Source of the DNA: Acetohalobium arabaticum DSM 5501
GTDB taxonomy: Bacteria; Bacillota; Halanaerobiia; Halobacteroidales; Acetohalobiaceae
Reading direction: 5' to 3'
NCBI RefSeq assembly: GCF_000144695.1
Contig: NC_014378.1
Span: 408,781-472,780, forward strand
DNA: 64,000 nt
The position numbers and the translations under genes are program-made. Shown here piece by piece: positions 23,931 through 52,051 of the stretch; position 1 is the stretch's first letter, and each line of letters starts with the position of its first letter. The notes beneath the pieces were generated by a model. The model saw nothing but the letters and a program-made list of their open reading frames with translations, made no database searches and had not been told where the DNA came from.

Positions 23931-24058
23931 ATAGTCAATATGTATCCGCCGCTTGCCGTTCGCTCAACGTCCTGTTTCGCTCACTGTCAAAAACTGCCCC
24001 TCCGTCGTCCATGACTCCGGGCCAGTTTTAAGAGTCGCTCTGGACACATATTGACTAT
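23931..24058 (+). repeat. Structured repeat family A, copy A1 (short form, 128 bp)
   Basis: Begins ATAGTCAATATGTATCC and ends GGACACATATTGACTAT, near-perfect 17-bp inverted ends. An inner stem AAAACTG-CCC / GGGC-CAGTTTT is present. It shares the blocks CCGCCGCTTGCCG, CGTCCTG and TTTTAAGAGTCGCTC with the other copies. Confidence 0.85.
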
Positions 24059-24124
24059 CTGTAATAAAGTGTTATCATCGATGGAAGTTATTCTAGATAC
24101 ATGATAATTTATTTTGGGTTACAA

Positions 24125-24361
24125 ATAGTCAACATTTCTCTGGAGCGACTCTTAAAACTGATTCGGAACCATGGAGGCTGTAGAGAAACTGATTTTAGCT
24201 CTTTGTCTTTAAATCAGAGCTTTAATATTATCTCTTGGCTCAGTAAGTTCATCCCATAGCCAGCATTGGTTTGTATGCTGGATATGGTGGAGAATCAGTT
24301 TTTGAGAATGAATGAGGCAGGACGCCGAATGAGTGGCAAGCGTAAGAGATTTGTTGACTAT
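24125..24361 (-). repeat. Structured repeat family A, copy A2 (long form, 237 bp, inverted)
   Basis: Read on the minus strand it starts ATAGTCAACAAATCTCT and ends AGAGAAATGTTGACTAT. Its inner stem is AAAACTGATT / AATCAGTTTT, and an extra arm contains CCAGCAT...ATGCTGG. It has the same order of conserved blocks (GGCGTCCTG, TTTTAAGAGTCGCTC) as A1, A3 and A4. The 68-codon frame that overlaps it on the minus strand has no family resemblance. Confidence 0.8.
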
Positions 24362-24441
24362 AATCTGCAATATCATGAAAGAAATTATATTAGCTGCAAA
24401 TGGAAAGTGACACATAATATCAATATAATACTAATTTTCCC

Positions 24442-24721
24442 TTGACAAATGGAAGTAGAGATGATAAATTATAAATTGTCGCCTCACAGGGGCTGACAAA
24501 TTAATTCATTTTTTTCTTGACAAAGTGAAGTTTTGATGTTAGAATGTTTAATGTCGCTTGTAAGAAAGCAGTCTTTTCTGCTGCAAAATCAAATAATTTG
24601 ATATTTCTTCTTGACAAGTGACGGAGTTTATGTTAATATATTAATTGTCGCTTGAAAAGAACTGGATCTTCTTGAGATTCTTGAATTTGTTCTTGACAAG
24701 CTACAAGAAAAATGTTAAAAT
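24442..24721 (+). promoter_or_regulatory. Four tandem rRNA promoters
   Basis: P1: TTGACA 24442-24447, TAAATT 24465-24470. P2: TTGACA 24517-24522, TAGAAT 24540-24545. P3: TTGACA 24611-24616, TAATAT 24634-24639. P4: TTGACA 24693-24698, TAAAAT 24716-24721. All have perfect -35 boxes and 17-base spacers, and each is followed about five to eight bases after the -10 by TGTCGC. Spacing between promoters is 75, 94 and 82 bases. Such arrays allow strong, growth-rate-controlled rRNA synthesis. Confidence 0.88.
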
Positions 24722-24756
24722 ACTTGATGTCGCTTATTCGCGACTACTGATCTTTG

Positions 24757-24773
24757 AAAACTGAACATTGTCC
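24757..24773 (+). other. 16S processing stem, 5' arm
   Basis: AAAACTGAACATTGTCC pairs exactly over 17 bp with GGACAATGTTCAGTTTT at 26447-26463 on the far side of the 16S gene. It forms the long stem cut by RNase III in pre-rRNA processing. Confidence 0.85.
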
Positions 24774-24872
24774 ATGCCAACGTCAATTGAGAATGGTAGT
24801 AATCCTTTATTCTTATTTGAGCCATATTAAACTCAACTTTTAGATCTGCTTTGCAGATTTAAATATATTCTT

Positions 24873-26415
<1,543 letters not shown>

Positions 26416-26446
26416 AGTACTTTTAAACCATTCTATTGCGTTTAAC

Positions 26447-26463
26447 GGACAATGTTCAGTTTT
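26447..26463 (+). other. 16S processing stem, 3' arm
   Basis: Perfect complement of 24757-24773. The 16S-23S spacer (about 110 bases) holds this arm and the 5' arm of the 23S stem but no tRNA gene. Confidence 0.85.
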
Positions 26464-26494
26464 GAGAGATCAATTCTCTCAAACTTGTACTTTG

Positions 26495-26510
26495 AAAACT
26501 GCACAATACC
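26495..26510 (+). other. 23S processing stem, 5' arm
   Basis: AAAACTGCACAATACC pairs exactly with GGTATTGTGCAGTTTT at 29479-29494. The flanking motif TTTGAAAACTG is shared with the 16S leader (24755-24763). Confidence 0.85.
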
Positions 26511-26520
26511 TGCATCAACA

Positions 26521-29471
<2,951 letters not shown>

Positions 29472-29478
29472 TGTGGAA

Positions 29479-29494
29479 GGTATTGTGCAGTTTT
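29479..29494 (+). other. 23S processing stem, 3' arm
   Basis: Perfect 16-bp complement of 26495-26510. Confidence 0.85.
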
Positions 29495-29581
29495 GAAAGT
29501 GCAACTAGAAAGCACTTGACAAGAGTCAATAGAGATGATATATTGTTAGGTGTGAGTAAAAAATAAACAAGTAAATAAATT

Positions 29582-29699
29582 TTCCGGTGGTAATCGCGGA
29601 GGGGCTACACCTGTTCCCATTTCGAACACAGCAGTTAAGTCCTCCAGCGCTGATGGTACTATGGGGGTGACCCTATGGGAGAGTAGGTCGCTGCCGGAA
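29582..29699 (+). rRNA. rrf: 5S ribosomal RNA
   Basis: About 118 nt with matching ends (TTCCGGTGG... / ...CGCTGCCGGAA) and internal landmarks CCCATTTCGAACACAG and GGGAGAGTAGGTCG. It lies about 110 bases after the 23S gene and leads into four tRNAs. Confidence 0.95.
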
Positions 29700-29727
29700 A
29701 TTAATTAATAAAGCATATTGAAGATAT

Positions 29728-29801
29728 TGGGATGTCGCCAAGCGGTAAGGCACAGGGTTTTGGTCTCTGTACCGCAGGTTCGAATCCTGCCATCCCAGCC
29801 A
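29728..29801 (+). tRNA. tRNA-Gln (TTG)
   Basis: Acceptor TGGGATG/CATCCCA, anticodon TTG in GGGTTTTGGTCTC, T-arm GCAGGTTCGAATCCTGC, encoded CCA. Confidence 0.96.
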
Positions 29802-29809
29802 CAAGATAT

Positions 29810-29885
29810 GCCCCCATCGTCTAGAGGCCCAGGATACTAGGTTTTCATCCTAGCGGCAGGGGTTCGAATCCCCTTGGGGGTGCCA
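29810..29885 (+). tRNA. tRNA-Glu (TTC)
   Basis: Begins GCCCCCATCGTCTAGAGGCC, anticodon TTC in CTAGGTTTTCATCCTAG, T-arm GGGGTTCGAATCCCC, encoded CCA. G1 faces U72 as a wobble pair. A copy of its last 11 bases (TGGGGGTGCCA) recurs at 29987-29997. Confidence 0.96.
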
Positions 29886-30024
29886 CCAAATTTACTTGAA
29901 GGCACTTGAATGTATTGTAGCTAAGCAACTTTAATTTAAGTGTAGTAATTACATGTGCCACAGCAAGGCTTGGTTTGTAGCCTGGCTGGGGGTGCCATTA
30001 AAACCTAATTGAATATTATGACCA

Positions 30025-30111
30025 GGAGGGGTTCCCGAGTCCGGTCAAAGGGAGCAGACTGTAAATCTGCCGGCGATGCCTTCAGAGGTTCGAATCCTCT
30101 CCCCTCCACCA
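30025..30111 (+). tRNA. tRNA-Tyr (GTA)
   Basis: Class II tRNA: acceptor GGAGGGG/CCCCTCC, anticodon GTA in CAGACTGTAAATCTG, long variable arm (CCGGCGATGCCTTC), encoded CCA. Confidence 0.97.
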
Positions 30112-30118
30112 TTGTTAT

Positions 30119-30193
30119 GCGGGAATAGCTCAGGGGTAGAGCGTCTCGTTGCCAACGAGAAGGTCGCGGGTTCAAATCCCGTTTCCCGCTCCA
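30119..30193 (+). tRNA. tRNA-Gly (GCC)
   Basis: Acceptor GCGGGAA/TTCCCGC, anticodon GCC in CTCGTTGCCAACGAG, T-arm GCGGGTTCAAATCCCGT, encoded CCA. Last gene of the rRNA-tRNA operon. Confidence 0.97.
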
Positions 30194-30208
30194 TATTATT
30201 TTGTAATC

Positions 30209-30238
30209 AAGACTATCTTATAGGATAGTCTTTTTTTA
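30209..30238 (+). terminator. Terminator of rRNA-tRNA operon
   Basis: AGACTATC and GATAGTCT form a perfect stem with a short loop, then seven Ts. Confidence 0.85.
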
Positions 30239-30353
30239 TTTATATAAATAATTTTTATCTCAATTTATTTATGCAGGACTTTAATTTGACAGTCTTGAAA
30301 TAATACATAGCTATCATTATTTAAAGAATTATAAGTCCTAGGAGGTAATTAAT

Positions 30354-30896
30354 TTGAGTATAGAAGAGAAAGATAATCAACCTTCTTCGGAAAAGGAAGA
30401 GGTAGGAAAAGCTAAGGTTACTATTTTTGGTGATGAATATGTAATTAGAGCAAAAGAATCGGCTGAATATATTAAACAAGTAGCTAAGTGTGTCAATCAA
30501 GAGCTAGAAGAAGTAACAGAAAAAGGGGCTAGATTAAGTAGAATAAAGATGATGGTCTTAGCAGCTATGAATTTAGCTGATAAGTATTATAAATCTTTGG
30601 ACCATGAGCAGGAAATAGAGGATAAGCTTCGGGATAGAGAAGAAGAGTTGGAAAACTTAACAAAACAGTATAAAGAGTTGACTAAAGAATATAATAATTT
30701 ACAAAAAGAATATGATATCTTGAAGACAAAGTATGAAAAATTACAGCAGAGATATGATGATTTAGATGATAAACACCAAAAATTAAGAAAAGAACGTAAT
30801 AATTTTGAAAAAAAATATGATGATTTGCAGCAAAAGTATGAAGAATTAGATAATGAATATCAGGAGTTTTTAATGGAATTTGATAAGGAGGATTAG
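30354..30896 (+). CDS. zapA: ZapA-like cell division protein with long coiled coil
   Basis: 180 aa from TTG behind CTAGGAGGT. Residues about 20-95 match the ZapA fold (KVTIFGDEYVIRAKESAEYI, then MMVLAAMNLADKYYK). ZapA bundles FtsZ filaments at midcell. The C-terminal half (about 95-178) is a continuous coiled coil with seven-residue repeats of the type KYEKLQQRYDDL, far longer than the usual 80-110 aa ZapA. The gene lies in the usual zapA-cvpA-polX order, overlapping the cvpA ribosome site. The long tail is the main oddity. Confidence 0.88.
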   Translation: MSIEEKDNQPSSEKEEVGKAKVTIFGDEYVIRAKESAEYIKQVAKCVNQELEEVTEKGARLSRIKMMVLAAMNLADKYYKSLDHEQEIEDKLRDREEELENLTKQYKELTKEYNNLQKEYDILKTKYEKLQQRYDDLDDKHQKLRKERNNFEKKYDDLQQKYEELDNEYQEFLMEFDKED

Positions 30897-30901
30897 CTTG
30901 A

Positions 30902-31390
30902 ATGCAGAGTATTAATCTTTTAGATTTTGGAATCATAATAATAATAATTTCTTCTATTCTCCGCGGCTATCAGAAAGGAATGATTAGACAGGTTATTTCT
31001 ATTGTAGCTTTAGCTGTTGCTTTTTATGTTGCTATGAATAATTATCAAGTGGTAGCCGTTTATTTCAATAATAATTTTCCGATTACTATGTCAATTGCAC
31101 AAGTTATTAGTTTTGGTTTGATTGTTATTGTGATTAGTGCTGTAATAAATATTTTAGGATATTTATTGAATAAATTAACCGGTCTTTTATTATTATCGAT
31201 GATTGATGGTATGGGAGGAGCTATTTTAGGACTGATTAAGGGTGGTTTAATAGTTTATATTTTATTAATTTTAATCAGTCGAGTACCATTTCCTGCAGCG
31301 GAAGATTCCCTACAGGCTTCTATTCTGGCAGATAAATTTTTATCATTAACTCCAATTTTTGAAGATAAGTTACAGGAATTTATAAATTAA
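30902..31390 (+). CDS. cvpA: CvpA family membrane protein
   Basis: 162 aa with four hydrophobic segments (about 5-22, 29-47, 65-88, 105-128). The GYQKGMIRQV motif in the first cytoplasmic loop and GAILGLIKGGLIVYILL near 112-128 are typical of CvpA. The family is linked to colicin V production in E. coli and to envelope integrity elsewhere; its exact function here is unknown. It starts six bases after zapA. Confidence 0.88.
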   Translation: MQSINLLDFGIIIIIISSILRGYQKGMIRQVISIVALAVAFYVAMNNYQVVAVYFNNNFPITMSIAQVISFGLIVIVISAVINILGYLLNKLTGLLLLSMIDGMGGAILGLIKGGLIVYILLILISRVPFPAAEDSLQASILADKFLSLTPIFEDKLQEFIN

Positions 31391-31421
31391 ATTGTATTAG
31401 GAAAGAGGTGGGGTTAAGTTA

Positions 31422-33137
31422 ATGGAGAACTTAAAAGTTGCTTGGATTTTAGAAGAGATAGCTGATCTTTTAAAATTAAAAGGAGCTAATTATTTTAAGA
31501 TTCAGTCCTACTATAATGTTAGCAAAAGAATTAAGAATTTAGAGACTAATATAAAGAAATTAGTAGCTAATAATAGATTACAGGATATTGAAGGGATTGG
31601 TGAAAGTTTAGCAGTTACTATTGATGAAATTTTACAGACGGGAACCTGCTCTAAATATAAAGAACTTAAAGAAGAGATTCCAATTGGTTTGTTAGAAATT
31701 CTTGATTTGCCGGGGGTAGGACCTAAGAAGGTTAAGCTTTTTTATGACGAATTAGGAATTACAGATTTAGATGAACTGAAGAAAGCTGCTAAGAAGCAGA
31801 AACTGAGAAAGTTATCCGGTATTGGAGCCAAGACTGAACTTAAGATTCTTGATGCTATCATGAAGGCTAAAAATAGGAATGATAAGATTGATTTAGGTTT
31901 AGCAACTGCTTTAGCTGAGGAGTTATTGGATATCTGTGCTAAGTTAAAAAGTGTTACTAAAGTAGAAGTAGTAGGTGGTCTGCGGAGGAAAAAAGAATTA
32001 ATCAGTGATCTTGATCTGTTAGTAGTAACTGATAATTCTAAGCAGGTTAGAGAAGTAATGAAGGATGTCCCCCTAGTAACTGAAGTATTAACTGAAACTG
32101 ATAAGAGTCTAGAATTAGCCAGCAAGCCTGGTGTTCCTATAGAGATCTTTTTTATTGTTGAAGATGAATTCTATTCTGCTTTAGTAGCAGCAACCGGTAA
32201 TCAGGAGCATTATGAAGCTTTAAGTGAGTTAGCAGCTCAGAAGGGATATTGCCTGAACAATACCGGAGTCTATCAGCTTGATACGAATGAAACTGTAGAG
32301 ATTGATTCTGAGAAAGAGATCTATCAGTTATTGGACTTACCATATATTATTCCGGAACTGCGGACAGGAGATCACGAAATTGAAGCGGCAAGGGAAGGGA
32401 ATTTGCCGGTTAAATTAGAGTCGGCTGATATAATGGGTGATTTACATGTCCATACTGACTGGAGTGATGGAGGCAATACTATCCAGGAAATGGCTTTGGC
32501 TGCTAGAGATAGGGGATATAAATTTTTATCTATCTGTGATCATTCAAAATCACTGGGGGTAGCCGGCGGTTTGACTATAGATGATTTAAAAGAGCAGATT
32601 AAAGAGATAGAGATAATAAATAAGGAATTAACTGATTTCAGGATCTTAAAGGGAGCGGAAGTGGATATTTTACATAATGGAGATTTAGATTACCCCCAGG
32701 AAGTTTTAGATGAGTTGGATATGGTGGTAGCATCAGTTCATTCAGGCTTTAGACAGTCCGGGGAACAGATGACTAGTCGAATCTTGAGAGCTTTAGATCA
32801 TGAGGCTGTTAATGTATTAGGCCATCCTACTGGTCGATTATTGGGTAAGCGGGGGCCTTATGCTGTTGATATAGAACAGGTAATCAAAAGAGCAGTAAAG
32901 ACAGACACAGTTTTAGAGATCAATGCATCGCCACATAGACTGGATCTTAACGGTAAACATCTAAGGATTGCTAAAGAGGCAGGAGCTAAAATAGCAATTA
33001 ATACTGATGCTCATAATATTCAACAGCTTGATAATATGCAGTTTGGAGTTTATAATGCTCGTAAAGGCTGGATTGAGCCGTCAGAAGTTATTAATACTTA
33101 TTCTTTAACAGAATTGTTGGCATTATTATATAATTAA
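31422..33137 (+). CDS. polX: DNA polymerase/3'-5' exonuclease PolX
   Basis: 571 aa, standard length. An N-terminal polX domain has helix-hairpin-helix repeats (IEGIGESLA, LPGVGPKKVK, LSGIGAKTE) and the nucleotidyltransferase acids SDLDLLV (about 192-198). The C-terminal PHP domain has HVHTDWSDGG (about 342-351), CDHS, EVDI and NTDAH for metal binding and exonuclease activity. It fills short gaps in base excision repair. It precedes the NIF3-like gene and mutS2. Confidence 0.96.
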   Translation: MENLKVAWILEEIADLLKLKGANYFKIQSYYNVSKRIKNLETNIKKLVANNRLQDIEGIGESLAVTIDEILQTGTCSKYKELKEEIPIGLLEILDLPGVGPKKVKLFYDELGITDLDELKKAAKKQKLRKLSGIGAKTELKILDAIMKAKNRNDKIDLGLATALAEELLDICAKLKSVTKVEVVGGLRRKKELISDLDLLVVTDNSKQVREVMKDVPLVTEVLTETDKSLELASKPGVPIEIFFIVEDEFYSALVAATGNQEHYEALSELAAQKGYCLNNTGVYQLDTNETVEIDSEKEIYQLLDLPYIIPELRTGDHEIEAAREGNLPVKLESADIMGDLHVHTDWSDGGNTIQEMALAARDRGYKFLSICDHSKSLGVAGGLTIDDLKEQIKEIEIINKELTDFRILKGAEVDILHNGDLDYPQEVLDELDMVVASVHSGFRQSGEQMTSRILRALDHEAVNVLGHPTGRLLGKRGPYAVDIEQVIKRAVKTDTVLEINASPHRLDLNGKHLRIAKEAGAKIAINTDAHNIQQLDNMQFGVYNARKGWIEPSEVINTYSLTELLALLYN

Positions 33138-33171
33138 ATATAGATTATAAGAAATTAGAGGAGGATTAACT

Positions 33172-34125
33172 ATGGAATTAGAGAAAATCTATGAATTGGC
33201 TTTAGAGCTGGGAATTGAAGCTGACCCCAGAGGAAAAGAGGAAGTTGAGAGGAAATTAAAAGAGATCAGAGAAGAATATGATGAGATGGATGAAGAAGAA
33301 AAAGGAGAGTTTGATGAAGCTAAACTGGAGAATCCTTATTCTGATACTAGAATTCTGTATGGAGACCAAGCAAGAGAAGTAGAGAGTATCTTAGTTGGGA
33401 TTGATATTGATGTTAGTGAAGTACTAATTGCTGATAGATTAACGGAAAAGGGGAGAAATATAGATTTAGTTATGTCCCATCATCCTGAAGGCAAAGCACT
33501 CGCAGCCTTACATCAGGTGATGCATATGCAGGAAGACATTCTTTATGAACATGGAGTTCCGATTAATGTAGCAGAAGACATAATGGCTGAGAGAATTCAA
33601 GAAGTTGAACGAAGACTAATGCCGGTTAATCACAATAAGACTAGAGATGCTGCTCGTATCTTTGATATTCCTCTACTTTCTGTCCATACTCCGGCGGATA
33701 ATTTAGTAACAGAGTATCTACAGAGTAAGATTGATAAGGAGAAACCAGACAAAGTAGAGAATGTAGTTCAGTTGCTTAAAGAGATACCGGAATATAAAGA
33801 AGCAGTTACTGAGAAGGCAGGACCTAAGGTTGTCGTGGGTAGTGAAGATAGACGAGCTGGTAAAGTAGTGGTTGATATGACCGGTGGAACTAGTGGTTCC
33901 AAAGAAGCATTTAAGAATCTATCCCAGGCCGGAGTAGGTACTTTAGTCTGTATGCATATCGGTGAAGAACATCGTAAAAAGGCAGAAGAGAACCATATTA
34001 ATGTAGTTATTGCTGGACATATGGCCAGCGATTCTATTGGATTGAATCTATTTCTGGATAGATTAGAAGAAAAGGGGATTGAGATTATACCTTGTTCAGG
34101 TCTAATTAGAGTAGTAAGGAATTAA
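33172..34125 (+). CDS. NIF3-like (NGG1-interacting factor family) protein
   Basis: 317 aa with a charged helical N-terminus (1-60) and a NIF3-like core. SHHPEGKALAAL (about 103-114) and the C-terminal IAGHMASDSIGLNLFLDRLE (about 283-302) carry the metal-binding His/Asp/Glu residues of the family. NIF3 proteins bind two metal ions and may be hydrolases, but no accepted reaction exists. It lies between polX and mutS2 with short gaps, which suggests one operon linked to DNA maintenance. Confidence 0.75.
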   Translation: MELEKIYELALELGIEADPRGKEEVERKLKEIREEYDEMDEEEKGEFDEAKLENPYSDTRILYGDQAREVESILVGIDIDVSEVLIADRLTEKGRNIDLVMSHHPEGKALAALHQVMHMQEDILYEHGVPINVAEDIMAERIQEVERRLMPVNHNKTRDAARIFDIPLLSVHTPADNLVTEYLQSKIDKEKPDKVENVVQLLKEIPEYKEAVTEKAGPKVVVGSEDRRAGKVVVDMTGGTSGSKEAFKNLSQAGVGTLVCMHIGEEHRKKAEENHINVVIAGHMASDSIGLNLFLDRLEEKGIEIIPCSGLIRVVRN

Positions 34126-34144
34126 CAGGAGGGGATGATAGACT

Positions 34145-41031: not shown

Positions 41032-41034
41032 AGT

Positions 41035-41700: not shown

Positions 41701-41707
41701 GTTATAT

Positions 41708-41738: not shown

Positions 41739-41834
41739 TCCAATTTTTAAAAGTCTCTATTCTGTTTATTAAGCAATAATTTAGGACATAATAACAGATA
41801 CAGTAGACTGGAAAGGGAAGCAAGGAGGTTAAGA

Positions 41835-42353: not shown

Positions 42354-42356
42354 TAA

Positions 42357-42626: not shown

Positions 42627-42636
42627 GAGTTGATCA

Positions 42637-43683
42637 ATTCTGGATGAAAAACGTCAAGAAAGAAAGGCACTATTATTAGTACTGTTAGTAGCTATAATTT
42701 ATTTTCTATATTTAGTTAGAATAGTTCTGCTGCCTTTTGTTTTGGCGATCTTTATTGTTTATCTAGTAAATCCTTTTGTTAAGTTATTAATTAATAGAGG
42801 TGTAAGTCGGAATTTAGCCTTGGTCTTAATCTTTATAATAGTAGTAGGGGGTCTCTTTTTGGTTGGCTTCTTTGCGGCTCCGCCTCTAATTGAAGAATTA
42901 AATGCTTTGGCTAATAGAATTCCGCAGTATAGTATTGAAATACAGAAGATTATTGATTCTGTTACTCAGAAGTATCAGCGGTTTAAACTGCCGTCTACCT
43001 TTCAATTAGTTGTGGATAATGCTATTGAAAGGATTCAGAATATAATCCTTCAGTTTGTAGAACGGACTACTGAAGTCATTATCGGCATTCTATCGAGATT
43101 TTTTAGCCTTATAATGGCTCCAATACTGGCCTTTTATATGTTGAAAGATATAGAAACAATTAAGAAGAATTTCTGGACGCTGATTCCTAAGGAAAGCCGC
43201 AAGGATATCAAGCAGTTGTTAAAAAAGATTGATAAAGTATTGATTGATTATCTTAAAGGACAACTGTTGGTTTCGGTGGTAGTAGGTCTTTTATCAATGT
43301 TAGGTCTGTATCTTTTAGATATTAATTTTTATTTAATTATTGGAATTTTTGCTGGAATAATGAATTTGATTCCTTATCTTGGAGTTGTGTTTGGAATTCT
43401 ACCAGCTGTTTTTGTAGCTTCCTTTAAGTCTTTTCAGTCAATCCTGGAGGTTATAGTGATGTTTGCTTTTGTCCAACAGTTAGAGGGTAGTTTGATTTCT
43501 CCTAAAATAGTTGGGGATAAAGTGGGACTGCATCCGATTCTGATTATTTTTTCTTTATTAGTAGGGGGAGAGTTATTAGGAATTATTGGAATGTTACTGG
43601 CAGTTCCTGTTGCTGGTATAATCAAAGTAATACTTAATCATTATATCAGTCGAGCCATAAAGATAAATAAAGGTGAAAGTTGA
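42637..43683 (+). CDS. AI-2E family transporter (PerM/YtvI type), AUU start
   Basis: About 348 aa. The stop TGA at 42631-42633 is in frame just upstream, and no ATG, GTG or TTG occurs until TTG 42742, which would remove the first membrane helices. ATT 42637, seven bases after AGGAG, gives LDEKRQERKALLLVLLVAII and the normal family length. Seven or eight helices, the central amphipathic region with a long periplasmic-type domain, and the C-terminal block PYLGVVFGILPAV and EGSLISPKIVGDKVGLHP are diagnostic. Relatives export autoinducer-2 or carry Na+/H+; the function here is open. Confidence 0.88.
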   Translation: MLDEKRQERKALLLVLLVAIIYFLYLVRIVLLPFVLAIFIVYLVNPFVKLLINRGVSRNLALVLIFIIVVGGLFLVGFFAAPPLIEELNALANRIPQYSIEIQKIIDSVTQKYQRFKLPSTFQLVVDNAIERIQNIILQFVERTTEVIIGILSRFFSLIMAPILAFYMLKDIETIKKNFWTLIPKESRKDIKQLLKKIDKVLIDYLKGQLLVSVVVGLLSMLGLYLLDINFYLIIGIFAGIMNLIPYLGVVFGILPAVFVASFKSFQSILEVIVMFAFVQQLEGSLISPKIVGDKVGLHPILIIFSLLVGGELLGIIGMLLAVPVAGIIKVILNHYISRAIKINKGES

Positions 43684-43708
43684 CAATATAAGTCTTTTTT
43701 AGTATCAT
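43680..43708 (+). promoter_or_regulatory. Promoter of alaS operon
   Basis: TTGACA (43680-43685) overlaps the stop codon of the transporter; TATCAT (43703-43708) follows after 17 bases. Confidence 0.6.
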
Positions 43709-43788
43709 ATAAAATATAAACTGTATTGAAAGCAAAAAAATCGATATATTTGATAGTGGAGGAGTTAGGTCAAGGAGGGGAATAAATT

Positions 43789-46416
43789 ATGTCAATGACT
43801 AGTAAAGAAATTAGACAGAAGTTTTTGGATTACTTCGAAAGCAAGGGCCATCTAATATTACCTAGTGCGCCTTTGGTACCTCAAAATGATCCTAGTTTAT
43901 TATGGATTAATGCCGGAATGACGCCTTTTAAACCTTATTTTAATGGACAAGCTACTCCTCCTAAGACGAGGATAGTTACTTCCCAGAAATGTATTCGGAC
44001 TAATGATATTGGAAATGTGGGAAAAACAGATAGGCATCATACATTCTTTGAGATGTTAGGGAATTTTTCATTTGGTGATTACTTTAAAGAAGAGGCAATT
44101 AAGTGGTCTTATGATTTTTTAGTTAATGAAATAGAGCTTAAACAGGACAGGTTATGGATCTCTATTTATAAAGATGATGAGGAAGCATTTGAAATTTGGA
44201 AGAATAAGATAGGGATTCCTACTGAACGGATAGTCCGGATGGGTAAGGATGAGAACTTCTGGCAGATAGGAACCGGTCCCTGCGGCCCCTGTTCAGAGAT
44301 CCATTATGATTTAGGAGCTGAATTTGGCTGCAGTGATAATTGTGATTTTGGCTGTGATTGTGATCGGTACCGAGAAGTCTGGAACTTAGTCTTTACTCAG
44401 TATGATTATACAGAGGATGGTGAGTATAAGACACTGCCAAGTAAGAATATAGATACCGGTATGGGACTGGAAAGGCTGGCTTCTATTATTCAGCAGGTTG
44501 ATTCTAACTTTGAAACTGATCTCTTTATACCGATTATTGAATTTATAAGTGAACATACAGAATATGATTATGAATCCAGTGATGAAATCAAGTCGGCTTA
44601 CCGGGTAATTGCTGACCATATTCGCAGTGTTACATTAGCTATTGGCGATGGAGTCTTGCCTTCTAATGAAGGACGGGGTTATATTATCCGCCGTGTGCTA
44701 CGAAGGGCTGTTCGGTATGCTAAGAAGCTTGATCTAAAGCTGCCTTTCTTACATAGAATTGTGCCGGTAGTAGTGGATATTATGGGGAATGAATATACTG
44801 AAATTGCAGACAAAGAGGAACAGATCAAAAAGACTATTAAAAGTGAAGAAGTTAAATTTCAGGAAACACTTGACCAGGGTATGGTAATTTTAGAAGAGTT
44901 AATCGATGAATTAGAAGGAGAAGGCAGAGAAGTAATTCCTGGTGATGAAGTATTTACTCTCTATGATACTTATGGTTTTCCCAAGGAATTAACTGAAGAG
45001 ATTGCTCAGGAACGCGGTTATAGAATAGATAGTGAAGGTTTTGAAGAGGCTATGGAAGAACAGCGGGCTAGAGCCAGAGCAGCCCAGAAGGATCATGACT
45101 GGAGTTCGGCTGAGATAGAGTTATTTAAGGAGCTTAGAGATGAGATAGAGATGCCTGAATTTGTGGGCTATACTCAGCCGGAATGTGAGACTGAAGTGGT
45201 GAAGATAATTAAGGATAATGAATTAGTAGACAGCCTATCTGCTGGTGAAGAGGGACAGGTTGTCTTAACTAAGACTCCGTTTTATGCAGAAAGCGGCGGA
45301 CAGATTGGAGATAAAGGTGCTTTATTAAGTGATGATATAACGGTAACAGTTGTGGACACGCAAGAAAAAGCAGAATTGATCAGCCATCAAGTAGTAATTG
45401 AAGCTGGTAAATTAAGTGTAGGGGATAAGCTGACAGCGAAGATCCAGACTGATCAGCGGATCTATATTAGAAGAAACCATACTGCCACTCACCTTCTACA
45501 TCAGGCTTTAAGAGATATATTAGGGGAACATGTGGATCAGTCTGGTTCCTTAGTGACTCCGGAACGGCTTCGTTTTGACTTTACTCACTTTGAAGCAGTA
45601 AGTGAAGAAGAGTTAAAAGAAATAGAAGAGCGAGTTAATCAAGTAATTAGAAAGAATTTAGAGGTTGAAGTACTTAAAACTACTTTAGAAGAGGCGAAAA
45701 AGATGGGAGCTGCAGCTCTCTTCAGTGAACAGTATGATGATGAGGTTCGCGTGATTAAGATTGGAGACTATAGCTTAGAACTTTGTGGTGGAACCCATGT
45801 TGATGCTGCAGGAGAGATTAATCTATTTAAGATCACTAGTGAAGGTGGAATAGCAGCCGGTGTACGCAGAATTGAGGCTGTTACCGGTAAAGAGGCGCTT
45901 AATTACATAAATCAGCAGGAAGATATACTAAAAGAAGCTGCTGCGGCTTTAAAGGCTAATCCAGAAGAGGTAGTCGAGAAGATTGAAAAACTGCAGTCTA
46001 AGATTAAAGACTTAGAAGCTGAAGTAACTAAGTTTAAGAATAAATTAGCTGATTCTCAGGCTGATGAAGTAGCATCAGATATAGAGGAGATCAACGGTAT
46101 TAATGTAGTCTTGGAAGAGGTTGAAGGACTGGATGCCGAAGGTCTACGGACTATGGGGGATAATATTAAAGAAGAGCTCGATTCTGGGATTATTATTCTG
46201 GCTTCGAAGCTCGGAGAGAAGGTTCTCTTTGTCAGTTTAGTGACTGATGATTTAGTTGATGAAGGATATAATGCCGGTCAGATTATTGGTGAAGTGGCCC
46301 GTGTTGCCGGAGGTGGCGGTGGTGGCCGTCCTGATATGGCTCAGGCTGGAGGTAGTCAGCCGGATAAGTTGGATGCTGCTTTCAAAAAAGCACGAGAATT
46401 GATAGCAGCTGAATAA
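43789..46416 (+). CDS. alaS: Alanine-tRNA ligase
   Basis: 875 aa, full length. The class II catalytic core has motif 1-2 around HHTFFEMLGNFSFGDYFK and motif 3 GMGLERLASI. The editing domain has the zinc ligands HTATHLLH (HxxxH) and ELCGGTHV. The C-Ala domain ends with the glycine-rich GGGGGGRPDMAQAGG. It charges tRNA-Ala and clears Ser- and Gly-tRNA-Ala. First gene of the alaS-ireB-...-ruvX cluster conserved in Bacillota. Start behind AAGGAGGGG. Confidence 0.98.
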   Translation: MSMTSKEIRQKFLDYFESKGHLILPSAPLVPQNDPSLLWINAGMTPFKPYFNGQATPPKTRIVTSQKCIRTNDIGNVGKTDRHHTFFEMLGNFSFGDYFKEEAIKWSYDFLVNEIELKQDRLWISIYKDDEEAFEIWKNKIGIPTERIVRMGKDENFWQIGTGPCGPCSEIHYDLGAEFGCSDNCDFGCDCDRYREVWNLVFTQYDYTEDGEYKTLPSKNIDTGMGLERLASIIQQVDSNFETDLFIPIIEFISEHTEYDYESSDEIKSAYRVIADHIRSVTLAIGDGVLPSNEGRGYIIRRVLRRAVRYAKKLDLKLPFLHRIVPVVVDIMGNEYTEIADKEEQIKKTIKSEEVKFQETLDQGMVILEELIDELEGEGREVIPGDEVFTLYDTYGFPKELTEEIAQERGYRIDSEGFEEAMEEQRARARAAQKDHDWSSAEIELFKELRDEIEMPEFVGYTQPECETEVVKIIKDNELVDSLSAGEEGQVVLTKTPFYAESGGQIGDKGALLSDDITVTVVDTQEKAELISHQVVIEAGKLSVGDKLTAKIQTDQRIYIRRNHTATHLLHQALRDILGEHVDQSGSLVTPERLRFDFTHFEAVSEEELKEIEERVNQVIRKNLEVEVLKTTLEEAKKMGAAALFSEQYDDEVRVIKIGDYSLELCGGTHVDAAGEINLFKITSEGGIAAGVRRIEAVTGKEALNYINQQEDILKEAAAALKANPEEVVEKIEKLQSKIKDLEAEVTKFKNKLADSQADEVASDIEEINGINVVLEEVEGLDAEGLRTMGDNIKEELDSGIIILASKLGEKVLFVSLVTDDLVDEGYNAGQIIGEVARVAGGGGGGRPDMAQAGGSQPDKLDAAFKKARELIAAE

Positions 46417-46449
46417 GAGCGAATTATAATCAGTTAAGGTGGGATGCAA

Positions 46450-46713
46450 ATGAGTCGTCATGATGAAACTATGAAGTTTAAGGTAAAGAAAGAAGAAATT
46501 AAAGAAGTTTCGGAAGTATTGGCTGAAGTCTATGAGGCGTTGGATGAGAAGGGGTATAATCCTATTAATCAGATTGTAGGCTATATCTTATCAGGAGATC
46601 CAGCCTATATTACTAGCCATCAGGAGGCCAGAAGTAAGATTCGCCGTTTTGAACGAGACGAGATAATTGAAGAATTAGTCCGTAATTATCTAGAGGACGG
46701 AAAAACCGAATAA
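46450..46713 (+). CDS. ireB: IreB-family regulatory phosphoprotein (DUF965)
   Basis: 87 aa from ATG 46450. The ATG at 46444 abuts AAGGTGGG. The sequence [15 protein letters not shown] through [20 protein letters not shown] is nearly invariant in the family. IreB is phosphorylated by the PASTA kinase IreK on threonines near the N-terminus (here the Thr in DETMKF) and influences cell-wall stress responses in enterococci. Its place after alaS is conserved. Confidence 0.94.
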
Positions 46714-46754
46714 AATATATCAATTATGCTGTGAATTTAATATGGAGTGATTAA

Positions 46755-48893
46755 ATGAATCCCAGGATTTTTCTAATAGCACTCATGCTCTGTCTGGTAA
46801 TTTCTCAAGCAGCTGTAGCCGATGGCAGCACTGAATTTACATTATTTATTATGGATCAGGTTAGTTTAAAGGAGATTATGCAGACTGAAACTCCAAACAT
46901 AGATTACCTTATCAATCAGGGGGCAGTAGGACTTATGAATGCACGGACTAGCGGAAGTCTTACGCCTCCTGATACTTATTTGACTATTGGCGCTGGACGC
47001 AGAGCTGATGGCGGTAAAGCAGCCAATTATAACTTTAATGTTCAATTTGATAAGGAGCAGATAATTAATAACAGCTTTTCTCAGTTAATTGCTGCTAATT
47101 TGGAGGGGCGCTATAGTGCTTATCCAGGGGCCTTGGGTGAAAAATTAGATAAAGCCAAAAAACAAGTAGCAGTGATCGGAAATAGTGATTATTATGATCA
47201 AAACGGTCAATATCAGTTAGGTAGAGAGGCAGCCTTGATTGGAATTAATGAAGAAGGCAGAATTTCTTTGGGAGATGTGGGACCTAAAACAGTACAGATT
47301 GATACTACATATCCAGGGAGAGTATTAACTGACCATGATTATCTGCTTGGTAAATTCAAACAGTATAGTTCAATAGCTGACTTAATAATAGTCGAATCAG
47401 GTGATACGGCCCGAATAGCAAAGATGCGTGATTCAATTCCTGAGACTAGATTTAATCGGTTAAAGAAGTGTGCTATTAAAAGAGTGGATAAATTATTAGG
47501 TCAACTGTTAGCTGAAATAAATTTATCCCAAAACAAGATTATGATAGTGACTCCAACACCACCCCGAAAGGCTCAACAGAAAGGAGAAAAGCTGAATCTT
47601 ACTATCTTAGCTGGCAGCGGAGTTAAACATGGTTTACTTACTTCCTCTACGACTAAACGATCTGGAATTATCACTAATCTGGATATTGCTCCTACAGTCT
47701 TAACTTCACTTGGGATTGACGAAGATTCTTCTAAGCTAATCGGAAATTCTATCAATGGTATTGAAGCTGAATCTCCATTAACTAAACTGTATCACTTGGA
47801 TAATAGAATTAATAAGACATTTACCTGGCGTCCGGTATTGATTAAAGGATTTATCCTATTACAGATATTTACTTTAGTATTGGCAGCAGTAGTGATTTTA
47901 GCCCACAAGAGGGTAACACTGAGATTGAAAAAAATAACAGAGTATTTGTTGCTATCTTTATTGGTGATCCCAATCTTTATTCTCTTCTTTACTTTCTTTG
48001 TCAAGCTTAATATTTATCTGATAATAATTTCATTTTTATTACTTAGTTTAGGGACAGCTTATTTATTGAAGAGGTCATTTGACCATGAATTAATGCCGGT
48101 TTTATTGTTAGCGAACTTAGTTTCATTCTTACTGGTCTTCGATCTCTGGAATAATGCCAGCTTGATTAAGACTTCAGTCTTGGGGTATTCGCCGGTGATT
48201 GGGGCCCGATATTATGGATTAGGTAATGAATTCATGGGGCTGTTGATTGGAGCTGTGTTGATTGGAGTTATCGGTATTTTTGATTGTTTCTGTAACTTGA
48301 AGCAGAAACAGGATTATATCTTATTATCGATTTTTATATTAGTTGTTATTACTATTGGTCATTCTCAGCTGGGAGCTAACTTTGGCGGGTTGCTTACTTC
48401 TCTAGCAGCTTTTAGTTTTACTTACGGATTAATTAAGGGATATCTGTTTAATTTTCGTAAGATATTAGTTATAATAATCTTGGTAGGATTGTTAACGGGC
48501 AGTTTAGTTATCTATGATGCCTTGAGTCCGCAAGCGGAATCGACTCATATCGGGCGGACAGTCCGGTTGGTTGAAGAGAATGGATTTTCAGTAATAGCTA
48601 AGATTGCTGCTAGAAAATTGAGCATGAATCTGAAGCTGCTGCGCTGGACGATCTGGACTAAGGTGATTTTAGCCTTTATTATTATTTTAGCTATTCTATT
48701 TAGATATCCAGTGGGGGTAGTTAGGAATATTATCGATGACTATTCTTATCTCCGATATGGTTTTGGCGGAGTAATCTGCGGCAGTATAGTAACGATGTTG
48801 GTTAATGATTCGGGGGTAGTAGCAACAGCAACATTATTGTTATATCCGGTAATTACTCTTGTATATTTAGTAATTAGACGTATTGAATTATAG
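46755..48893 (+). CDS. Alkaline-phosphatase-fold domain plus multi-helix membrane protein (712 aa), unknown function
   Basis: Signal peptide (about 1-22), then a domain of about 320 residues with features of the alkaline phosphatase/phosphoglyceromutase fold: FIMDQVSLKEI, the TPNIDYLINQGAVGLMN block, the nucleophile-like SLTPPDTYLTIGAGRRADGG and NLDIAPTVLTSLGI. About ten membrane helices follow from residue 357 (ILLQIFTLVLAAVVILAH onward), with a conserved-looking loop SPVIGARYYGLGNEFMG (about 478-494). It may transfer or remove phospho-groups on the outer membrane face, for example on polymers. It sits between ireB and ruvX, where other Bacillota have nothing. Specific function unknown. Confidence 0.75.
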   Translation: MNPRIFLIALMLCLVISQAAVADGSTEFTLFIMDQVSLKEIMQTETPNIDYLINQGAVGLMNARTSGSLTPPDTYLTIGAGRRADGGKAANYNFNVQFDKEQIINNSFSQLIAANLEGRYSAYPGALGEKLDKAKKQVAVIGNSDYYDQNGQYQLGREAALIGINEEGRISLGDVGPKTVQIDTTYPGRVLTDHDYLLGKFKQYSSIADLIIVESGDTARIAKMRDSIPETRFNRLKKCAIKRVDKLLGQLLAEINLSQNKIMIVTPTPPRKAQQKGEKLNLTILAGSGVKHGLLTSSTTKRSGIITNLDIAPTVLTSLGIDEDSSKLIGNSINGIEAESPLTKLYHLDNRINKTFTWRPVLIKGFILLQIFTLVLAAVVILAHKRVTLRLKKITEYLLLSLLVIPIFILFFTFFVKLNIYLIIISFLLLSLGTAYLLKRSFDHELMPVLLLANLVSFLLVFDLWNNASLIKTSVLGYSPVIGARYYGLGNEFMGLLIGAVLIGVIGIFDCFCNLKQKQDYILLSIFILVVITIGHSQLGANFGGLLTSLAAFSFTYGLIKGYLFNFRKILVIIILVGLLTGSLVIYDALSPQAESTHIGRTVRLVEENGFSVIAKIAARKLSMNLKLLRWTIWTKVILAFIIILAILFRYPVGVVRNIIDDYSYLRYGFGGVICGSIVTMLVNDSGVVATATLLLYPVITLVYLVIRRIEL

Positions 48894-48923
48894 CTTAAGA
48901 AGATAGAGAGGAGCTTAAATAGT

Positions 48924-49340
48924 TTGTCTCGGATACTTGGATTGGATTTTGGAGATAAGCGGATAGGAGCTGCAACTAGCGATGCTTTAGGCTGGACTGC
49001 TCAGGGGAAGAAGGTAATTCAGAATACTTCCTGGGAGGAAGTAGTAGCTGAAATAAATTCTTTGATTGAGCAGTATGATGTTGGGAAGGTAGTTGTAGGT
49101 CTACCCAAGAATATGAATGGAACCTTAGGACCTAGAGCTGAAAAGACTCTGGATTTTGTAGAACAGCTTAAAGAAGAGATTGAACCTCCTATTATTACCT
49201 GGGATGAGAGATTATCTACTGCTGCAGCTGAAAGAACACTGCTTAAGGCAGATGTCAGTAGAGCAAAGAGAAAAGATGTTATTGATAAGATGGCAGCAGT
49301 AGTTATCTTACAGAGTTACTTAGATGCTCAATCGAGCTAA
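48924..49340 (+). CDS. ruvX: Putative Holliday junction resolvase / pre-16S rRNA nuclease (YqgF)
   Basis: 138 aa from TTG. The RNase H-like fold has GLDFGDKRIGAA (catalytic Asp at about 6), VVGLPKNMNGT, WDERLSTAAAE and KKD..DKMAAVVILQSYL-type ending (RKDVIDKMAAV, Asp). YqgF matures the 5' end of 16S rRNA in E. coli and has been proposed as a junction resolvase. Conserved position downstream of alaS-ireB. Confidence 0.95.
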   Translation: MSRILGLDFGDKRIGAATSDALGWTAQGKKVIQNTSWEEVVAEINSLIEQYDVGKVVVGLPKNMNGTLGPRAEKTLDFVEQLKEEIEPPIITWDERLSTAAAERTLLKADVSRAKRKDVIDKMAAVVILQSYLDAQSS

Positions 49341-49363
49341 AATTAGGAATTGGGGTGAATAAT

Positions 49364-49639
49364 ATGGCTGAAGAAGGAATGATTCGAGAGTTTGATCCAG
49401 AAGAAGGTGTTGTTGTTTTAGAAGAAATGGATGGAGAAGAGATTGAGTTTTCCATTGAGGAAGAAGTAGAGATTGATGATGATAAGTATTTTATTCTTGT
49501 TAGGGAAGATGAATTAGATGTTGGGGAAGGATATGCCTTACGATTGGATAAGGATGATAATGGCGACTTGATTCTGGTTCCGGTTGATAGTGATGAGGAG
49601 CTGGTGAAAGTTCAGACGGCTCTGGAGAATATGAACTAA
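49364..49639 (+). CDS. DUF1292 protein (YrzB family)
   Basis: 91 aa from ATG 49364, five bases after GGGGTGA; GTG 49355 is part of the ribosome site. It is very acidic (about a third Asp/Glu), with the family core FSIEEEVEIDDDKYFILV and YALRLDKDDNGDLILVPV. Function unknown. The order ireB-ruvX-DUF1292-mltG is conserved in Bacillota. Confidence 0.9.
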   Translation: MAEEGMIREFDPEEGVVVLEEMDGEEIEFSIEEEVEIDDDKYFILVREDELDVGEGYALRLDKDDNGDLILVPVDSDEELVKVQTALENMN

Positions 49640-49671
49640 TAAAATTGAGTTTTTTCTATTATTAGAAGTAT

Positions 49672-49725
49672 AAAGCCGCCCTTAGCTGGAGATAATATTA
49701 CTACAAGCTAACAAGGGGGGCTTTA
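49672..49725 (+). promoter_or_regulatory. Hairpin that buries the DUF4258 ribosome site
   Basis: AAAGCCGCCCTTAGCT (49672-49687) can pair with AGCTAACAAGGG/GGGCTTT (49706-49723). The 3' arm contains the Shine-Dalgarno AAGGGGGG (49713-49720), six bases from the start codon. It may be a terminator for the previous operon that doubles as a translational gate; there is no clear T run. Confidence 0.55.
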
Positions 49726-49726
49726 T

Positions 49727-50026
49727 ATGTTATTAGCGGAGTGTTTTCTGGATGACCATTATTTTAGAATAGAAAGCACAACACATGCAATGGATAGAAT
49801 AAAGGAACGCAGTATAGATATTAGCCTGGTAACCAGTATTATTTTGAATTTAGGTAATAAGCTGTTGGATTATAATGATACAGGTGATGAAGTAGCAGTT
49901 GTCGATCAGAAGAATAATCTGGCTGTAATTATCGAGGTGCGTGAAGGTAAAGCGGTGGTAATTACAGTGATTGACCGGGCTAATATACATATTAAAGATG
50001 GAACACTATTAGAAGAGATTGCTTGA
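49727..50026 (+). CDS. DUF4258 domain protein
   Basis: 99 aa. The core FRIESTTHAMDRIKERSID (His-x-x-x-Arg-x-x-x-Arg pattern, about 13-31) and a short beta-rich C-terminus (AVVDQKNNLAVIIEV, AVVITVIDR) fit DUF4258, a RelE-like fold group that includes toxin-like and phage proteins. No antitoxin gene lies beside it. It breaks the usual DUF1292-mltG neighbourhood and borders the repeat cluster, so it may have been inserted. Confidence 0.65.
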   Translation: MLLAECFLDDHYFRIESTTHAMDRIKERSIDISLVTSIILNLGNKLLDYNDTGDEVAVVDQKNNLAVIIEVREGKAVVITVIDRANIHIKDGTLLEEIA

Positions 50027-50045
50027 TACTATGGAAGCTCAGCTT

Positions 50046-50080
50046 AAGGCCAGAGGAATTATTCTTCTGGCTTATTATTT
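50046..50080 (+). terminator. Terminator after DUF4258 gene
   Basis: AAGGCCAGA and TTCTGGCTT pair around a short loop, then ATTATTTTTA. Confidence 0.65.
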
Positions 50081-50186
50081 TTATTTGCTAAATAAGACTT
50101 AATTGTTTATAATATAAGAGGATAATTTATTAATCATGCACATCAACTTAGGCTAAATTAATGTACACATTCATAATATTACAGGG

Positions 50187-50424
50187 ATAGTCAATATGTA
50201 TCCGCCGCTTGTCGTTCGCTCAACGTCCTGTTTCACTCACTCTCAAAAAACAGTTTTCCGCATAGCCAGCATAAAGATCAATACTGGCTATGGGAGTAAC
50301 TAATTGAGCAGAAAGATAGTATTAATGCTCTAATTGACAAGGCTAGGAGCAAGGATTTATAATCCTGCGGACCTCCATGGCTCCAAACTGTTTTTAAGAG
50401 TCGCTCTGGACACATATTGACTAT
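50187..50424 (+). repeat. Structured repeat family A, copy A3 (long form, 238 bp)
   Basis: Ends ATAGTCAATATGTATCC and GGACACATATTGACTAT as in A1. Inner stem AAAAACAGTTT / AAACTGTTTTT. Extra arm with CATAGCCAG...CTGGCTATG. Length is within one base of A2. Confidence 0.85.
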
Positions 50425-50571
50425 TGATAATAGAATAGATTGCTATGGTTATCACCAATAGGAGTTGCTGTAAGCATATATAGACTATTTGCAATATTAC
50501 ATTGCAATTACAGCACAGAAATTTCATTAATTTGGTTTTAAACGCTTCCTCAGATTATTTTGCACAATTTA

Positions 50572-50718
50572 GTTGATATCTTGCAAAAAGCGACTTTAAA
50601 GCAGTCCCACAAGAGAGAATGATTAACATATAAAGCAGAATCTTTAAATCGTAACATTAAGGTTGATTTACTGCTGAGTGATTAGGACTGATTTTTGGAG
50701 CGTTTGCAAGATATCAAC
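50572..50718 (+). repeat. Structured repeat family B, copy B1 (147 bp)
   Basis: Terminal arms GTTGATATCTTGCAAA (50572-50587) and TTTGCAAGATATCAAC (50703-50718) are perfectly complementary. A second stem CAGTCC/GGACTG lies inside. It corresponds along its length to B2, with which it shares AAAAAGC.ACTT.AAGCAG, CATATAAAG and GACTGATTTT..GAGCGTTTG-like blocks. Confidence 0.8.
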
Positions 50719-50792
50719 TCTAAACTGCAACAATATATCAATAATGATTAACTTATATATTAAGTTGACGTGTATGATTTATTAATTAGATT

Positions 50793-51842
50793 TTGAAGAA
50801 AGGGATGGGGTTTTTGTTTGATTTTCAATCGCGTAATAGAAATTTAGCAGCTGTGGTGATTATGATTCTTTTTATTTTAACGCTGACTAGCATTTCTTAT
50901 CTCCAGAAATGGACAGGGCCGGTGGATAGAGGAGCGGTTTCTGCTTATGAAGTTGAGGTTAAGTCAGGGGCTAGCAGCGGTCAGATAGCTAACTTGTTAT
51001 TTGAAAAGAAATTAATTAGACATCCGTTTCTTTTTAAGGCATTGGTTAGATTCAAGGGAGTTGAGAATAAGCTGCGGGCGGGCTATTATAGATTAAGCAC
51101 AGGTATGTCGATTGATGAAATGATAGATAAGTTAGTTAGTAATGAGGTGATTACTTATCAGGTAACTATTCCGGAAGGATATACTGTCGAAGAGATTGGG
51201 GATAAATTATCTAAAAAGGCTGGCTTTAGTAAGAAGCAGTTTCTTACGGTAGCGGAAGAATTAAAGGCTGAATTTTCTTTTGCCGAAGAGATAGATGTTA
51301 AGCATCGGAAATATCCGTTAGAGGGCTATCTGTTTCCGGAGACTTACTCAATTCCGAAGGGGACTGCTCCGGAGAATATAATTAAGTTGATGGTGGGGCA
51401 ATTTAAGGAGAAGTTAATTGATAAATTAATAACAGAGGTGAAGCAGAGCAAGTATAGTCTGGATGAGATAATAACAATTGCTTCTTTAGTGGAAGCAGAG
51501 GTAAAGTATGATAAGGAGCGGCGGTTGATTGCAGGCGTGATCCATAACCGGCTGAATAAAAATATGTTACTCCAGATAGATGCTACTATTCAATACATTC
51601 TGCCGGAGCATAAAGAGCAGATTCTTTATAAAGATTTAGCTTTGGATTCGCCGTATAATACCTATCAACGTTTAGGCTTACCGCCGGGGCCGATCAATAA
51701 TCCGGGGCTGGCTTCGATTAGGGCAGCACTCAATCCTGCTGAGACGGATTACTTATATTACTTTGCTTTAGAGGATGGGAGCCATAAATTTAGTGAGACT
51801 TATCAGGAGCATCTGCGGCTGCAGAATAAGTTGAAATATTAA
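50793..51842 (+). CDS. mltG: Endolytic transglycosylase MltG
   Basis: About 345 aa. One N-terminal membrane helix (about 20-38), a LysM-like subdomain (about 50-105: VKSGASSGQIANLLFEKKLI), and the YceG catalytic domain with the Glu-containing IASLVEAEVKYDKERRLIAG, FHNRL-type VIHNRLNKNM, LQIDATIQYI and SPYNTYQRLGLPPGPINNPG. MltG cuts nascent glycan strands near the membrane. The start is uncertain: TTG 50793, ATG 50805 and TTG 50814 are all in frame near AAAGGGATGGGG. The gene is flanked on both sides by A-B repeat pairs. Confidence 0.94.
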   Translation: MKKGMGFLFDFQSRNRNLAAVVIMILFILTLTSISYLQKWTGPVDRGAVSAYEVEVKSGASSGQIANLLFEKKLIRHPFLFKALVRFKGVENKLRAGYYRLSTGMSIDEMIDKLVSNEVITYQVTIPEGYTVEEIGDKLSKKAGFSKKQFLTVAEELKAEFSFAEEIDVKHRKYPLEGYLFPETYSIPKGTAPENIIKLMVGQFKEKLIDKLITEVKQSKYSLDEIITIASLVEAEVKYDKERRLIAGVIHNRLNKNMLLQIDATIQYILPEHKEQILYKDLALDSPYNTYQRLGLPPGPINNPGLASIRAALNPAETDYLYYFALEDGSHKFSETYQEHLRLQNKLKY

Positions 51843-51924
51843 GGCTTGATTATGTAAAGACTAGTAATATTATGTGTAAATCTACAATCTTTTCACGTAT
51901 ATATTTGATCATGATATTGCCAGA

Positions 51925-52051
51925 ATAGTCAATATGTATCCGCCGCTTGCCGCTCATTCGGCGTCCTGCCTCATTCGCTCTCAAAAATAGCCCTCTCGCC
52001 GTCCGTGGCTTCGGGCTATTTTAAGAGTCGCTCTGGACACATATTGACTAT
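51925..52051 (+). repeat. Structured repeat family A, copy A4 (short form, 127 bp)
   Basis: Ends ATAGTCAATATGTATCC / GGACACATATTGACTAT. Inner stem AAAATAGCCC / GGGCTATTTT is perfect. It keeps CCGCCGCTTGCCG, GGCGTCCTG and TTTTAAGAGTCGCTC. Confidence 0.85.

Follow-up and report, generated by a model that had tools for sequence, protein, structure and literature searches.

What are the four structured repeats that lie between genes in a 64,000-nt stretch of the Acetohalobium arabaticum DSM 5501 genome (hereafter the window; positions 408781–472780 of a single contig of 2,469,596 bases), and what is their conserved pairing for? The original prediction, made from the letters of the window, described four repeats of two size classes, bounded by ATAGTCAAYAT-type inverted arms and enclosing an inner stem that differs between copies yet still pairs, and proposed a structured RNA or a hairpin-dependent mobile element of no recognized family. 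The window sequence bears out all four copies with their arms: short forms at 23931–24058 (copy 1) and 51925–52051 (copy 4), and long forms at 24125–24361 (copy 2, with a second arm type and inverted relative to copy 1) and 50187–50424 (copy 3). The inner stem differs and pairs in every one of them; the structured strand is the minus strand in copies 1, 3 and 4 and the plus strand in copy 2. We find that this repeat, here called module A, forms the conserved core of mobile elements that neither code for protein nor move autonomously and that resemble miniature inverted-repeat transposable elements (MITEs), and that these elements probably carry in it a strand-specific, regulator-like RNA. Covariation, dispersed near-identical copies and duplicated flanks in a relative support the proposed choice between RNA and mobile element, and no coding gene or Rfam family accounts for the repeats. 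Neither of the outcomes that the original prediction had named as refuting it was observed.

Module A has a covarying four-helix fold. Sixty modules extracted from the fetched stretches of the genome measure 126–129 nt (52 distinct sequences) and the long forms 234–239 nt, in agreement with the two size classes; extracted lengths of 181–192, 245, 287, 302 and one of 234 nt reflect extraction that overran to a later arm, and long forms with a further insert span 268–297 nt in the fetched stretches. For the 52 distinct copies in a structure-blind alignment, RNAalifold predicted 38 pairs, 20 of them with two-sided changes. The helices are P1 (the arms), P3 (the inner stem of the original prediction), P4 (the tip of P3) and P2, which stands apart as a hairpin of its own. 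When the complement of the strand first read is taken, the 37 named pairs form in 96.2% of alignment cells over these copies, compared with 87.3 ± 0.3% after shuffling and only 34.5–41.5% when the structure is slid along the same copies. The covariation test suggested with the original prediction gave a significant result under a tree-based null of our own implementation (not R-scape), which keeps the tree and the changes per column (200 simulations; 70 sequences, structure-blind MAFFT alignment): 5 of the 37 structure pairs had E ≤ 0.05, compared with 0 of 7,713 other pairs. Across the phylum, 35 distinct copies in an alignment fitted to the model pair in 95.5% of cells (63.5% when shuffled), with two-sided changes in 35 of 37 pairs, and the P1 arms, which look unrelated across lineages, are paired in 93.2% of cells. 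Conservation is strong in the hairpin loops and in the GA internal loops, whereas the paired positions vary. Alignments A3, A5 and A6 are model-fitted and lean towards structure, whereas A1, A2 and the 70-sequence alignment are not; A5, the source of model R2, holds one spurious row (L009, plus strand). One detail of the original prediction needs correction: CGTCCTG, listed as a conserved unpaired block, corresponds, on the other strand, to a loop plus the pairs that close it.

The strand with GA and GGA internal loops is well supported, although not proven, as the working strand, mainly on the strength of these purine loops. Of the two spacers that separate the short helices of P2, the outer is GA/GA in all 52 copies and the inner in 50 of them; P3 and P4 are separated by GGA/GGA in 41 of 52. 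The complement reads TC/TC in the purine-loop positions. Tandem G-A mismatches stabilize a helix. The predicted RNA energies of four copies tested are −50.3 to −52.2 kcal/mol for the GA/GGA strand and −38.4 to −43.9 kcal/mol for its complement, a difference of 7–12 kcal/mol in favour of the former in all four, and the ratio of G-U to A-C mismatches in the family set (17:4) favours the same strand.

Both hairpin loops of this strand carry GGA. The P4 loop reads CANGGANG in 47 of 52 distinct own copies and in 18 of 18 cases in family relatives, and the P2 loop reads CA(N)GGANG in 51 of 52 and 17 of 18, respectively; in copy 1 the loops are ATGGAC (P4, ANGGAN; 24007–24012) and AGGAC (P2; 23969–23973), both on the minus strand and closed by C-G. 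Outside the family, in eight genomes, A(N)GGA is present in 20/20 P4 loops and 16/20 P2 loops. Such loops occur in 4 of 6,461 other hairpins of the fetched stretches (5–6-nt loops), a base rate taken from 4-bp stems, whereas the loops of P2 and P4 sit on stems of 3 bp. Passages of PMC7652899 give CAGGA(U/A/C)G for CsrB repeats and ANGGAN for the RsmE hexaloop, with GGA in hairpin loops; as far as sequence goes, the loops of module A match this CsrA/RsmA consensus. GGA in the loops of several hairpins, as expected of a CsrA-sequestering RNA, is present in the module. A csrA gene occurs in all 13 genomes of the order, to which this survey was limited, including the five with the module, and the gene order in A. 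arabaticum is fliW-csrA-flagellin, as confirmed by Pfam. CsrA represses translation of hag in Bacillus subtilis, as stated in the same source (PMC7652899). In eight flagellin leaders, one per genome, a hairpin lies upstream whose loop is of the ANGGAN type, with C-G as the closing pair in seven and T-G in one (stems set by eye); the flagellin starts were found by motif in 8 of 10 regions, and the Shine-Dalgarno sequence, which also fits the loop pattern, was excluded from the count. The hairpins of module A are thus of the type seen in the flagellin leader, which is the likely CsrA operator in its host.

Tentatively, and rating it somewhat short of an even chance, we read the elements as dispersed CsrA-binding RNAs whose two GGA hairpins would bind CsrA when the structured strand is transcribed. 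That strand is predicted to fold into the closing arm helix P1, the stem P3–P4 and the hairpin P2, so placed that P4 and P2 would present C-G-closed A(N)GGAN loops on short helices split by GA/GA or GGA/GGA loops. In a transcribed copy the two hairpins could bind a CsrA dimer in the manner of the flagellin-leader hairpin, and the element RNA might act as a CsrA decoy or be a way of tying the element's own RNA to CsrA. Mobilization would be in trans, by enzymes that presumably differ between lineages because outer ends and target rules differ.

Several observations weigh against the CsrA-binding reading. When each strand is compared with its dinucleotide shuffles, the fold is about as good on one as on the other (z scores of −6.5/−4.4, −6.0/−7.3, −7.2/−7.8 and −6.2/−6.4), and the same holds with DNA parameters; the energy gap alone is therefore not proof of the strand. 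The A. arabaticum mismatch ratio drops from 50:17 to 18:17 without one column pair, and head-to-head pairs put one module on each strand. The module copies have no conserved promoter or terminator; promoter-like sites are enriched upstream in sense (28/64 versus 12.4 when shuffled; the copies are related) and also from the opposite side (38/64 versus 16.7), and we judged the promoter evidence too weak for use. Copies that sit behind terminators, described below for two genomes, would be transcribed little. The P2 motif is lost in some copies (ACGAT in L144 and L223), a second flagellin-like gene of genome G005 has no GGA hairpin, and eight positive genomes (G051, G093, G160, G211, G283, G284, G318 and G329) lie outside the order that the csrA survey covered.

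The repeats of the window are real, but each is a module inside a larger element, as with copies 1 and 2, which stand head to head in composite element 1 (23834–24423; ends TTGATATTATGTGTCAC / GTGACACATAATATCAA). The genome holds many more: BLAST returned 51 matches to the repeat, and the conserved 3′ end pattern has 48 matches (0 for the reversed control). The covariance-model search that the original prediction had proposed gave 102 matches, some partial and with long copies often matching twice, which means tens of copies instead of four. In A. arabaticum, module A is usually part of a larger non-coding composite with inverted ends, TTGATATAWTGTTGCAG or TTGATATATTGTGTCAC; 49 two-ended composites of 278–729 bp were found in the fetched stretches, about nine of them with two head-to-head A modules (counted by eye). 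The second passenger is commonly module B, also palindromic, whose end pattern has 54 matches. Four 532-bp composites at distant loci are nearly identical, and so the composite moved recently. The elements are multi-copy and non-coding and have inverted terminal repeats, as MITEs do. A coding gene was rejected as an explanation since the repeats hold no long open reading frame (three of 52–68 amino acids overlap copy 2). Two composites contain a closely similar insertion sequence with its own ends and a DDE-type transposase (genome 639607–640860 and 2130800–2132070; L089/L117 and L100); the protein of one copy has rve and HTH_21 domains (Pfam), and we take these insertions to belong to the IS3 family. 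They are later guests. An autonomous transposon among the long elements was sought and rejected, as both long cases are these insertion sequences with their own ends.

Within the order, a covariance-model search that scored 150 candidates per genome found the module in the five genomes of its own family and in 0 of 8 of the other family; a pattern scan of genome contigs matched Fuchsiella alkaliacetigena (G003) and Candidatus Frackibacter (G002). In samples of the phylum, the first model detected it in 9 of 299 genomes and a broader model in 13 of 398, some of which belong to other classes; these searches used stricter filters above 40 genomes per search and scored the best 11 or 8 candidates per genome, which makes copy numbers lower bounds. 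In one of the phylum genomes, the two module copies have a GC content of about 80%. G004 has the long form as well, which therefore either predates the genera or spread between them. L152, from the same genome, is a decayed relative with outer arms kept and inner hairpins altered, and can serve comparisons as a pseudo-copy. Viral contigs gave no match to a first pattern and five to a second, none flanked by the module or matched by the model, and plasmids and phages gave none to the single query L220.

The elements built around module A are mobile, and their target sites differ by lineage. In G283 the core lies within an element of about 190 bp, eight copies of which have flanks sharing words of 8–12 bases, compared with 3–9 for mismatched flanks. 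L225–L228 have the same flank as L224, which alone was counted; these five are one 190-bp copy near the end of a larger repeat that is present five times and carries the element along. Of the copies examined in G002 and G004, 21 of 24 follow an intrinsic terminator in sense (11 of 240 shuffles), whose T-tract lies 7–18 nt before a conserved leader; the same window has one on the other strand in 8 of 24, and downstream windows pointing back have none. Leader positions were set by hand-made patterns, and G002 C16, C35 and C32:41569, G004 C12, C13, C20, C38 and C28, and L152 stand outside the count. The leader (for example in L148, L150 and L142) contains TGTGGATAA, a match to the DnaA-box consensus, in several copies. 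Core-less copies (L181, L184 and L188) also occur in these two genomes. In A. arabaticum, only 12 of 98 composite sides lie ≤70 nt from a terminator (a count with no matched background), and terminator targeting was rejected as a general rule. The ends of the 49 composites show no conspicuous target duplication: a scan of offsets 0–30 and lengths 2–14 peaked at z = 3.9, 25 bases outside the element. The flanks show a weak symmetric T-N8-A preference. Composites at genome 130261, 1770692, 1931369, 1130223, 318803 and 959261 have similar flanking DNA (TCATAAAATTAAA / TCTACTATTTTT), so that a different intergenic repeat, itself multi-copy, may have been their insertion target. Group II introns were considered as mobilizers and rejected; a GIIM domain is encoded in 5/5 family genomes, but no shared ends were seen by eye.

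These data bear on the main rival of the CsrA-binding reading, in which the fold serves mobility only: a transposase, recombinase or reverse-transcribing enzyme would read the folded strand, as happens with REP/RAYT and IS200/IS605 or, where target choice is concerned, with group IIC introns, and any resemblance of the loops to CsrA sites would be accidental. We regard this as possible but rather doubtful. It would suit copies that are numerous, nested and dispersed, that follow terminators in sense in G002 and G004, that show no conspicuous target duplication in A. arabaticum and whose P1 arms stay paired over the phylum. The core is nevertheless constant while ends and targets change (shared flanks in G283, terminators in G002 and G004, neither in A. 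arabaticum), whereas recognition specific to a transposase would be expected to change with the ends; A(N)GGAN in both loops, given its rarity in other hairpins, also counts against a fold for mobility only. Selection on the core accounts more readily than any one transposase for its survival through replacement of ends and target rules.

A second alternative is an RNA that acts in cis, modifying the 3′ end of an upstream read-through transcript (stability, a backup for anti-termination, or processing). The sense placement of G002 and G004 copies directly behind terminators would suit it; A. arabaticum composites rarely sit there, and in Fuchsiella (G003) the nearest upstream open reading frame is co-directional for only 6 of 9 copies, and we consider it unlikely. 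DNA inverted repeats can undergo hairpin-templated correction, and some inner stems do change wholesale, but functionless palindromes kept complementary in this way are very improbable, given strongly conserved hairpin and GA internal loops amid varying pairs and a pattern that holds phylum-wide, including the GC-rich copies.

If the CsrA-binding reading is right, transposition has been multiplying the sites to which a global regulator binds, and the FliW protein would be joined by RNA antagonists in A. arabaticum. A broader form of it, to which we lean less, is that of a phylum-wide transposable family whose selected payload is the CsrA-binding hairpin pair. It would be a mobile sponge for CsrA, selfish or domesticated, and would spread new copies of an RNA that binds the regulator through genomes that also carry FliW (seen here for A. 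arabaticum). Even without CsrA, it is unusual for a structured cassette to stay intact across the phylum while its mobile ends are exchanged, and module A provides a new covariance model for annotation.

We compared module A with known systems. Rfam gave no match at the gathering level and none credible at a permissive level; microRNA-precursor models (best E values of 3.9e-5 and 0.00058) were rejected, as they scored 33.8 and 25.5 bits against gathering thresholds of 230 and 113, and their alignments fall on the long inverted pair. The TwoAYGGAY motif, one of 104 candidate RNAs in a 2010 survey, has by its name and reportedly in its loop detail a pair of AYGGAY loops, which belong to the loop class of module A; cmscan listed no match to it at E ≤ 5 or at E ≤ 10, with the presence of that model in the searched Rfam copy unconfirmed. 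The part of PMC2864571 that describes it places it in the human gut, gamma-Proteobacteria and Clostridiales and rates it as 'probably' an RNA. Like CsrB, CsrC and RsmX/Y/Z, module A has GGA in hairpin loops, P2 and P4 fitting the CsrB and RsmE loops as given in the passages cited above (PMC7652899). Unlike them, it has two sites in a fixed four-helix domain, is multi-copy and is borne on mobile elements; the CsrB, RsmY and RsmZ covariance models found no match on the element, and it lies in a genome, that of A. arabaticum, which encodes the antagonist FliW. The elements resemble bacterial MITEs and REP/BIME sequences in being short, non-coding and multi-copy with inverted ends, and G283 flanks are duplicated; they differ in having a covarying multi-helix core common to elements with unrelated ends, and in the lack of duplication in A. 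arabaticum. Group IIC introns insert directly behind rho-independent terminators, according to a passage of PMC8919778; most of the G002 and G004 copies examined share this target choice and nothing else, the elements being much shorter and without an Rfam intron match, and ten group II intron ends compared by eye show no likeness to the element. MRSC-65-2, according to passages of PMC11109978, is a multi-copy structured repeat, undecided between RNA and DNA, with a single long stem and UYCCGG, unlike the four helices of module A. The same paper, a 2024 survey, counts 250 mobile or repeat RNA candidates, and module A could be among them. A term search of the A. arabaticum Z-7288 genome paper (PMC3035264) found no mention of such repeats in the text searched. 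Open-licence literature, taken without supplements (including PMC4383904, PMC2864571, PMC9788540, PMC11109978 and PMC6429828), yielded no description of the element; the relevant terms were absent from PMC8632094 and PMC8040213, and searches with the motif letters gave nothing relevant among the titles listed. Within the printed text covered, module A comes nearest to RNAs of the CsrB/RsmZ type, to the TwoAYGGAY motif and to mobile or repeat RNA candidates as a class.

The other composites of the window, like element 1 and the B modules, are given here without a strand. Element 2 (50157–50741) holds copy 3 and a module B (50572–50718) with its own inverted ends, GTTGATATCTTGCAA; its left end is degenerate and was set by eye, and its right terminal inverted repeat lies at 50722–50741. 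Within the long-form insert of copy 3, a σ70 promoter match of 12/12 (TTGACA-18-TATAAT) is found at 50334–50363 on the plus strand and is altered in some other long copies. Element 3 (51864–52256), with two degenerate ends set by eye, holds copy 4 and a diverged module B (52085–52230; GTTGATATATTTC ends, set by eye). Elsewhere in the genome, an extra insert, about 60 nt long and bearing two C-AGGAN-G hairpins, occupies an identical short site (GCGACTY/TAAA) in three A modules (genome 113059, 1647128 and 2133460) and one B module (318803; L063, L074, L079 and L112 overall), and its stems, compared by eye, differ among copies yet pair. The Rfam matches in the window are ordinary cis-regulators, two T-box leaders and a c-di-AMP riboswitch (20082–20317, 10936–11186 and 14654–14805).

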